From NCBI GenBank assembly GCA_017619935.1, contig JAFZRJ010000011.1, forward strand, positions 1-51,700: DNA of 51,700 nt, written 5' to 3'. Shown here piece after piece: positions 15,887 to 17,857 of the stretch. Numbering within the stretch: position 1 is the stretch's first letter; the number at the start of each line of letters is the position of its first letter. A program made the position numbers and the translations under genes. Source of the stretch: Muribaculaceae bacterium. Lineage in GTDB: Bacteria > Bacteroidota > Bacteroidia > Bacteroidales > Muribaculaceae. The notes below the pieces were generated by a model. The model searched no databases. It saw nothing but the letters and a program-made list of their open reading frames with translations, and was not told where the DNA came from.

Positions 15887-17857
15887 ATGTTTTCAGTTGA
15901 CCAAACAAATATTAGTCATGCACTCACCCATCCGGTGTTTCGGTTGGTGGGTAACGTAGCCGACAAGCTGAACCGGGAATGCTACGTCGTGGGCGGCTAT
16001 GTTCGTGACATTTTTTTGGAACGAACCAGCAACGACATTGACTTTGTGACCGTCGGGAGCGGAATTGAGCTGGCACGGGCCGTGGCAGAAGCATTTGGAC
16101 GCAAACGCGTGGCGCTGTCGGTTTTTAAGACCTACGGCACCGCTCAAGTGCGTACGCACGACCTGGAGTTGGAATTCGTGGGGGCGCGCCGAGAGAGTTA
16201 CAGGCGCGAGAGCCGTAATCCCATCGTGGAAGACGGCACGCTCGAGGATGACCAACTTCGCCGCGACTTCACCATCAACGCCATGGCGATTTCTCTCAAC
16301 AGCCACAACTTCGGACTGCTGCTCGACCCGTTCGATGGATTGGGCGACTTGAAACGACGTATCATTCGCACTCCACTTGACCCCGACATCACTTTCAGCG
16401 ATGACCCGTTGCGCATGATGAGGGCCGTGAGATTTGCCACTCAACTGGAATTTGACATTTTCCCTGACACGTTCCAAGCCATCAAGAAAAACGCCCATCG
16501 CATTAAAATCATCACACTCGAGAGAATTGCCGAGGAATTAATGAAAATCATGCGTTCCCGACAGCCATCTCGAGGATTTGAGTTACTGGAATCGTGCGGA
16601 TTGCTCCCTCTCATTTTCCCCGAACTATCGGCACTGAAAGGCGTGGATACAAGCCACGGGCGTGGACACAAAGACAACTTCAAGCACACAATGCAGGTAC
16701 TTGACAACGTAGCCGTTTCCAGCGACAATGAGTGGCTTCGGTGGGCCGCCCTGCTCCACGACATTGGCAAGCCAGCCACCAAACGCTGGGACGATGCGTT
16801 GGGATGGACATTCCACAACCATAATTTCATCGGCGAAAAGATGGTGCCACGCATCTTCGGAAAAATGCGATTGCCGCTCAATGAGCACATGAAATATGTG
16901 AAAAAACTCGTTGGTTTGCACATGCGCCCCATCGCCCTTGTCGAAGACGGGGTGACTGACTCGGCCGTGCGCCGACTGCTCTTTGATGCAGGCGACGACA
17001 TCGACGACCTCATGACCCTGTGCAAGGCCGACATCACCAGCAAGAATGAAGAAAAGGTGAAGCGTTTCCGCGACAACTTCGACCTTGTGAAACAGAAACT
17101 TATTGACATTGAAGAAAAAGACCGTGTTCGCAACTTCCAGCCACCCATCGACGGCGAGGAAATCATGACCACGTTTGGCCTTTCGCCCAGTCGCGCAGTG
17201 GGCGAAATTAAGGAGGCTATAAAAGAAGCCATTCTTGAGGGCAACATCGCCAACGACTACGCCCAAGCCTATTCGCTCATGATGAGGTGCGCCGGCAGAC
17301 TGGACATCACCCCTGTTCACTCCACCGAGTTGTGTCACATTTCCACCCCCACCCCGGCCGGCTTAATCACTATCGCCGCCACCACTCAGGGCGTAGCACT
17401 TGTCACATTCGGTGAAGCACAAGATAAGTTACAACACTTGGCAAAACAGTTTAAACTTTCACTTGCCACAATCGAGACACCACTGTTGAAGCAATGCCGA
17501 ACGCAATTACAGGAATACTTCAGTGGTGAGCGACGCAATTTCTCACTGCCTTTGCACCGAACGCCAACAGCATTTCAGGCACTGGCATGGAAAGAACTTG
17601 AACGCATTCCTTACGGATGCACCGAAAGCTATACCGAACAGGCCGAACACATTGGGCATCCTAAAGCATCTCGCGCGGTTGCACAAGCCAACGCAGCCAA
17701 TCCGATTTGCATTATCGTACCGTGTCACCGCGTGATTGCCACCGACGGGTCGATTGGAGGCTACAGCGCCGAAGGGGGGACCGAAACAAAGCGCTTCTTG
17801 CTCCAGTTGGAGCAAGAAGTGCTCAATAACGATAAAAAGACCCAGCCAGCTGATTAG
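15887..17857 (+). CDS. CCA-adding enzyme fused to O6-alkylguanine-DNA alkyltransferase
   Basis: A 656-residue protein joining two enzymes in one frame. Residues 1-470 are a class II tRNA nucleotidyltransferase/poly(A) polymerase: Gly-Gly-Tyr-Val-Arg-Asp at 36-41, the Asp-Ile-Asp metal site at 50-52, Arg-Arg-Asp-Phe-Thr at 125-129, and an HD domain with His291-Asp292. Residues about 482-645 are a complete alkyltransferase (Ogt/MGMT): Ile-Pro-Tyr-Gly at 574-577, the arginine-finger segment Ser-Arg-Ala-Val-Ala at 595-599, and the active-site Pro-Cys-His-Arg-Val at 612-616 with acceptor Cys613. The junction is near base 17297. The first would add CCA to tRNA 3' ends, the second would repair alkylated guanine. 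Start 15887 is at or near the predicted transcription start. Confidence 0.93.
   Translation: MFSVDQTNISHALTHPVFRLVGNVADKLNRECYVVGGYVRDIFLERTSNDIDFVTVGSGIELARAVAEAFGRKRVALSVFKTYGTAQVRTHDLELEFVGARRESYRRESRNPIVEDGTLEDDQLRRDFTINAMAISLNSHNFGLLLDPFDGLGDLKRRIIRTPLDPDITFSDDPLRMMRAVRFATQLEFDIFPDTFQAIKKNAHRIKIITLERIAEELMKIMRSRQPSRGFELLESCGLLPLIFPELSALKGVDTSHGRGHKDNFKHTMQVLDNVAVSSDNEWLRWAALLHDIGKPATKRWDDALGWTFHNHNFIGEKMVPRIFGKMRLPLNEHMKYVKKLVGLHMRPIALVEDGVTDSAVRRLLFDAGDDIDDLMTLCKADITSKNEEKVKRFRDNFDLVKQKLIDIEEKDRVRNFQPPIDGEEIMTTFGLSPSRAVGEIKEAIKEAILEGNIANDYAQAYSLMMRCAGRLDITPVHSTELCHISTPTPAGLITIAATTQGVALVTFGEAQDKLQHLAKQFKLSLATIETPLLKQCRTQLQEYFSGERRNFSLPLHRTPTAFQALAWKELERIPYGCTESYTEQAEHIGHPKASRAVAQANAANPICIIVPCHRVIATDGSIGGYSAEGGTETKRFLLQLEQEVLNNDKKTQPAD

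Follow-up and report, generated by a model that had tools for sequence, protein, structure and literature searches.

An Ogt-type alkyltransferase fused to a class II tRNA nucleotidyltransferase in a genus of Muribaculaceae

Within a window of 51,700 nucleotides from a Muribaculaceae genome (contig JAFZRJ010000011.1, the whole stretch of DNA analysed here), a single open frame joins a tRNA nucleotidyltransferase to a complete O6-alkylguanine repair enzyme, and this fusion is the norm of the genus to which the window belongs (g1) and is present in two further genera of the family (g47 and g52). It is likely that the product is a bifunctional protein consisting of two probably active, largely independent enzymes, with Ogt supplied by a housekeeping gene. 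The half spanning residues ~1-477, a class II tRNA nucleotidyltransferase with its HD domain, would be the cell's CCA-adding enzyme, acting on tRNA ends, and the Ogt-type half, spanning residues ~480-645, would be a suicide alkyltransferase acting on alkylated DNA. Loss of the stop between adjoining cca and ogt genes would have created the fusion, the fusion would have made a stand-alone ogt unnecessary, and the sole detected alkyltransferase would now be expressed constitutively at housekeeping level, in a genus without a detected Ada sensor. We infer the enzyme activities, the independence of the halves, the constitutive expression and the route of origin alike from comparison of sequences.

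The fused gene, cca (class II) followed by ogt, occupies positions 15887-17857 of the forward strand and runs through 656 codons and a stop without interruption. Five Pfam domains, each exceeding its curated cut-off, follow one another on that strand: the nucleotidyltransferase head domain PF01743 (PolyA_pol; 15980-16369, residues 32-161; 92.9 bits against a cut-off of 23), with its GGYVRD, DxD and RRDFTINA motifs; the PolyA_pol_RNAbd domain PF12627 (16451-16633, residues 189-249; 72 bits against 22); the HD domain PF01966 (16685-16936, residues 267-350), with H267, H291 and D292; Methyltransf_1N, the N-terminal ribonuclease-like domain of the alkyltransferase, PF02870 (17345-17554, residues 487-556); and DNA_binding_1, its catalytic and DNA-binding domain, PF01035 (17573-17815, residues 563-643; 101.7 bits against 27). 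The NCBIfam Ogt model TIGR00589 scores 102.7 bits against a cut-off of 46.4. The NCBIfam cut-offs for CCA equivalogs are missed, the best being TIGR02692 at 359.8 bits against 438.8, and because the name of that model points to actinobacterial enzymes, the miss weakens the exact CCA name and not the class. The source genome (1.86 Mb in 38 contigs, 66% complete) holds only one PF01743 protein, which, for all the incompleteness of the assembly, makes full CCA addition by this protein likely. The first-pass annotation had described one frame with two complete enzymes and a cysteine at position 613 in Pro-Cys-His-Arg-Val, and both descriptions are borne out, Cys613 sitting within VPCHRVI (codon 17723-17725). 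It was also right that the frame is fused, and only the place of the join shifts, from 17297 to slightly downstream at 17309-17338 (residues ~475-484). Seventy-nine Bacteroidota CCA enzymes without an alkyltransferase align to the window protein at 57-69% identity, most of them up to residue ~480, so that the alkyltransferase starts where ordinary CCA enzymes stop.

Both enzymes appear intact and are probably active, judging by the residues that fusions retain. An alignment of 44 fused proteins, from which duplicates and also the proteins of G119, G192 and G170 had been left out, was extended by those three to 47, of which 38 come from g1 and nine from g47 and g52. P612, C613, H614, R615, R596, N605, K635 and E642 are invariant in all 47, and Y582 and Y576 are each present in 46. 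Cys613 we take to be the acceptor cysteine, Arg596 (codon 17672-17674) the arginine finger, and N605 and E642 the active-site Asn and Glu, so that the complete alkyltransferase with arginine finger proposed at first reading stands, with both R596 and PCHR invariant. An alkyltransferase-like protein (ATL), in which the acceptor cysteine is replaced, is ruled out, since Cys613 is kept in 47 of 47 fusions. The head motifs of the other half, GGxVRD, DxD, RRDFTINA and DDPLRxxRxxRF, are present in the window protein; their key residues are retained in 42-44 of the 43-44 fusions whose sequence extends to them, and H267, H291 and D292 of the HD domain are present in 44 of 44; the remaining positions of the nucleotidyltransferase and HD motifs vary in the 44-fusion alignment. 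An internal start giving a separate alkyltransferase finds no support at either candidate position: Met465, found in all 44 fusions, lies inside the CCA part, and position 487 is Met in 19 of 44 and Thr in the window.

The distribution of the fusion was followed in a scan of 397 genomes of the family, one per species and 84 of them g1, with places counted among the matches listed. Seventy-two of the 84 g1 genomes are fused, 67 matching through residue 642 or beyond and five counted as partial (G399, G027, G386, G390 and G414); in nine others the CCA enzyme stops at about residue 480, and the remaining three lack an orthologous match. All five sampled genomes of g52 carry the fusion, as do four of nine in g47, including one (G170) cut by a contig end. 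Identity to the window is 68-79% for 66 of the 67 full-length g1 fusions. These counts answer the question, raised in the first-pass annotation, of whether a genus shares the two domains in this order. Frames longer than 600 amino acids were confined to g1, g47 and g52 in a complete alkyltransferase search of 149 genomes from 30 genera of the family. Across the order (393 genomes, ~150 places among the matches listed) the window protein alone extends beyond residue 494, and across the phylum (296 genomes) no other alkyltransferase frame among the matches listed exceeds 423 amino acids. The named loci, 80 kept from at least 586 candidates, include one fusion, L032 of 'Muribaculaceae bacterium RGIG4880' from roe deer rumen, whose frame equals in length and scores that of L020 from G028 (g1).

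Two irregular loci were seen among the relatives. In L129 (G386) the fused gene is split over two frames in its CCA part, near query residue 353, for which an assembly error and a real break are both possible. In L201:3062-5755 (G045) an 898-amino-acid frame leads from a CCA enzyme across a run of unknown residues (X) to a part resembling an HD-domain protein, and the X stretch suggests a scaffold gap, not a real fusion.

Where it occurs, the fused domain seems to have replaced the stand-alone Ogt. PF01035 was sought in 101 g1 genomes, many of them incomplete and their counts not phylogenetically independent, and a match was present in 90, including all 48 with a completeness of 90% or more and contamination of 5% or less. 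Eighty-two of the 101 count as fused (77 by a frame of at least 600 amino acids, not all of them aligned singly, and five partial by sequence), each with exactly one PF01035 match and no second one. Stand-alone matches occur in eight genomes: the CCA enzyme is unfused in seven of these (G014, G347, G393, G401, G404, G228 and G335), and in the eighth, G434, the alkyltransferase is free-standing; G228 has two stand-alone matches, and the sole match of G335 is a 133-amino-acid frame scoring 51.4 bits to the ogt model. The 11 genomes without a PF01035 match are all less than 90% complete; among them are G380 and G397, whose CCA enzymes just end, the next gene being convergent and similar to the GtrA of the window. 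The same mutual exclusion appears in g47, where eight genomes were examined (G205 not included): G082, G170 and G182 have one fused match each, and G103, G123, G141, G157 and G195 one separate match each. The check for a second stand-alone ogt suggested at first reading detected none in the source genome, although at 66% completeness such a gene could be absent from the assembly. The Ada sensor domain PF02805, which binds Zn, was found in none of 61 g1 genomes. Where it occurs, the fused domain is thus the only alkyltransferase detected, with no sign of Ada-type induction.

The stand-alone enzymes have features of their own. In G228 a 317-amino-acid frame (L115:1759-2709) places an AraC-like region before the alkyltransferase domain, in a genome that has no match to the Ada Zn-binding domain. 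Eight stand-alone enzymes (L113, L120, L122, L124, L126, L197, L198 and L229, from G014, G347, G393, G404, G401, G080, G121 and G434, respectively) keep PCHR and have AQAV instead of RAV, and L191 (G064) keeps PCHR with YQAV in place of the RAV of the other stand-alone enzymes shown. The arginine finger thus appears replaced by glutamine in these enzymes, several of which also have altered spacing before it, and five of them belong to g1 species without the fusion.

The history of the fusion was approached through one tree of CCA enzymes (52 chosen rows) and three of alkyltransferases, the first with 63 chosen rows, the second without the long branches L115 and L191, and the third without 12 rows including those two. 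On the CCA tree g1, g47 and g52 each form one group (100/98, 100/99 and 100/97), and the fused state needs at least seven changes. Two unfused groups are nested within fused g1, and G380 and G397 group with the window's species (99/95); by parsimony, two lineages inside g1 would have lost the alkyltransferase half while keeping the CCA enzyme. A clade of g1, g47 and g52 is rejected on this tree (p-AU 0.003), implying several fusions, several losses or transfers, and a clade of g47 and g52 is not rejected (p-AU 0.292). The alkyltransferase trees do not reject a single clade holding every fusion (p-AU 0.383, or 0.237 with more outgroups), nor a clade of the fusions with the adjacent ogt of G086 (p-AU 0.432). 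Fusions from g47 and g52 fall into one group (94/91 in the first tree, 97/80 in the second), which in the first tree lies apart from g47's own stand-alone alkyltransferases, and those from g1 make up a group of their own (92/96 in the second tree) that is broken by one free enzyme in the third. The fusion may have arisen several times, or once long ago and then been lost in places. An origin of the fused domain from Ada was rejected, because Ada-labelled C-domains form a group of their own (100/97) that contains no fusions and consists of 13 such domains and one free enzyme; one of the 13, L220, has no Ada N-terminal part in its frame.

A plausible precursor arrangement is found in G086 (g51), where cca and a separate ogt of 169 amino acids overlap by ATGA; the G086 ogt is placed firmly with no fusion in the three alkyltransferase trees. 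In G070 (g35) cca, two closely packed frames and ogt lie on one strand (L182:3231-6159). The intervening frames look like queD and queE, and the cluster may be an operon that combines tRNA-modification with repair genes. The G070 ogt falls among ordinary stand-alone enzymes in the first alkyltransferase tree. A neighbouring alkyltransferase seems rare elsewhere, none adjoining cca in the 79 named loci L033-L111, some of them shortened by contig ends. Loss of the stop in a neighbouring cca and ogt pair is the simplest route to the fusion.

The first-pass annotation had suggested that alkylation damage could signal to the CCA enzyme or alter its turnover, naming a simple gene fusion without functional coupling as the plain alternative. 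It is the plain alternative that fits best, with the addition that the stand-alone enzyme has seemingly been replaced; the suggestion of signalling is disfavoured by the nested losses of the fused domain, which argue against an essential link of the halves, and by the rate at which the domain diverges. The ratio of alkyltransferase to CCA divergence, a crude measure drawn from identities in 44 genomes with G228 left out of its group, has medians of 3.02 (g1), 3.06 (g52) and 3.37 (g47) for fused proteins and of 3.13, 2.37 and 2.92 for stand-alone groups, with a wide spread in each group (0.22 to 6.15 over all). The alkyltransferase half therefore diverges from fusion to fusion, when scaled to the CCA half, about as much as stand-alone enzymes do.

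Coupling of the halves would mean that suicide alkylation of Cys613 alters how the whole chain folds or turns over, and that CCA addition, and translation with it, declines under alkylation stress. The length of the join, residues 470-492, is identical in 38 of 38 g1 fusions, which may hint at constraint there, and the fixed join and the retention of the fusion in most of g1 (72 of 84 genomes) might both reflect an advantage of physical coupling. In the nine fusions of g47 and g52, however, the join is 1-12 residues longer, and loss of the fused domain in groups nested within g1, by parsimony, and its stand-alone-like divergence also count against coupling. Alkylated human MGMT is destabilised and degraded, according to a review (PMC10814553), but the degradation described there is by the proteasome in human cells. 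Taken together, these observations leave coupling unlikely. The more elaborate proposal of a damage gauge is quite improbable: each repaired base would permanently mark one CCA enzyme, the marked chain would be less active or less stable, and tRNA maturation would fall in proportion to alkylation damage, and an advantage of such coupling may then have led to the fusion more than once.

Other roles for the fused domain fare worse. The tRNA-binding half might bring the alkyltransferase to O6-alkylguanine within tRNA molecules, and the one point in favour is that the two halves are physically linked. Position 599, which by the human numbering and the Arg-to-Cys spacing would correspond to Gly131 in human MGMT, is Ala in the window and in 37 of 47 fusions and Gly in the other 10, and no opening for RNA is seen. 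In human MGMT the 2'-hydroxyl of RNA reportedly collides with the C-alpha of Gly131 and hinders the enzyme (PMC10814553), and an alanine where even glycine is reported to clash makes RNA repair less likely, so that dealkylation of tRNA is very doubtful. That the alkyltransferase domain is a decaying passenger, a tolerated remnant without function, is highly improbable: its two domains have median identities (over 528 pairs) of 44% and 58%, far below the 81% of the CCA half, and some relatives do without it, but its catalytic residues are invariant in 47 of 47 fusions, its divergence is about that of stand-alone alkyltransferases, and it is the only PF01035 match in the genomes where it is present. 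An assembly or frameshift artefact joining two genes, a caution voiced at first reading and made conceivable by an incomplete source genome in 38 contigs, is excluded for practical purposes, since 67 assemblies, each of a different g1 species, and the named record JAFUWD010000045.1 all show the same uninterrupted frame.

Seen against known systems, the window protein shares the head, RNA-binding and HD domains and the motifs of class II CCA enzymes and differs from them by a second complete enzyme at its C-terminus. With Ogt and MGMT (PF01035, TIGR00589) it shares both domains, PCHR, the arginine finger and the active-site Asn and Glu, but those are free proteins of ~170 amino acids, whereas here the enzyme stands at the end of a CCA enzyme. 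Ada also carries a C-terminal alkyltransferase in a multidomain bacterial protein, and the best phylum matches of the fused alkyltransferase, among the matches listed, are to the C-domains of Ada proteins, with identities reaching 46%; the fused protein, however, has neither the Zn-binding domain PF02805 nor the AraC part of Ada. Natural alkyltransferase fusions in the available part of a review of the family involve endonuclease V in Ferroplasma and a histone-like partner in C. elegans AGT-2, and in both the C-terminal part is all that is retained of the alkyltransferase (PMC10779285). These too join an alkyltransferase to another protein, as far as that text describes them, but their partners act on DNA or resemble histones, whereas the partner in the window is a tRNA enzyme and both alkyltransferase domains are present. 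The words 'tRNA' and 'nucleotidyltransferase' do not occur in the available text of that review, nor 'fusion' and 'fused' in that of a review of the Ada response (PMC4437013). No published pairing of a CCA enzyme with an alkyltransferase was found in searches of open-licence PubMed Central papers, in agreement with the initial remark that no such description was known, and the protein is therefore taken to combine the domains of two well-known families in a new way.

With the fusion, a tRNA-maturation enzyme joins the few natural partners of alkyltransferases, and does so as the norm of a genus and not as a curiosity. Human MGMT is the source of the SNAP-tag, and the fused protein would in effect be a naturally self-labelling tRNA enzyme, which would make any coupling between repair and CCA addition directly testable in vitro. 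Within one family the domain is variously fused, missing or replaced by a different stand-alone enzyme, and the Muribaculaceae thereby offer a natural comparison for the function of the fusion.
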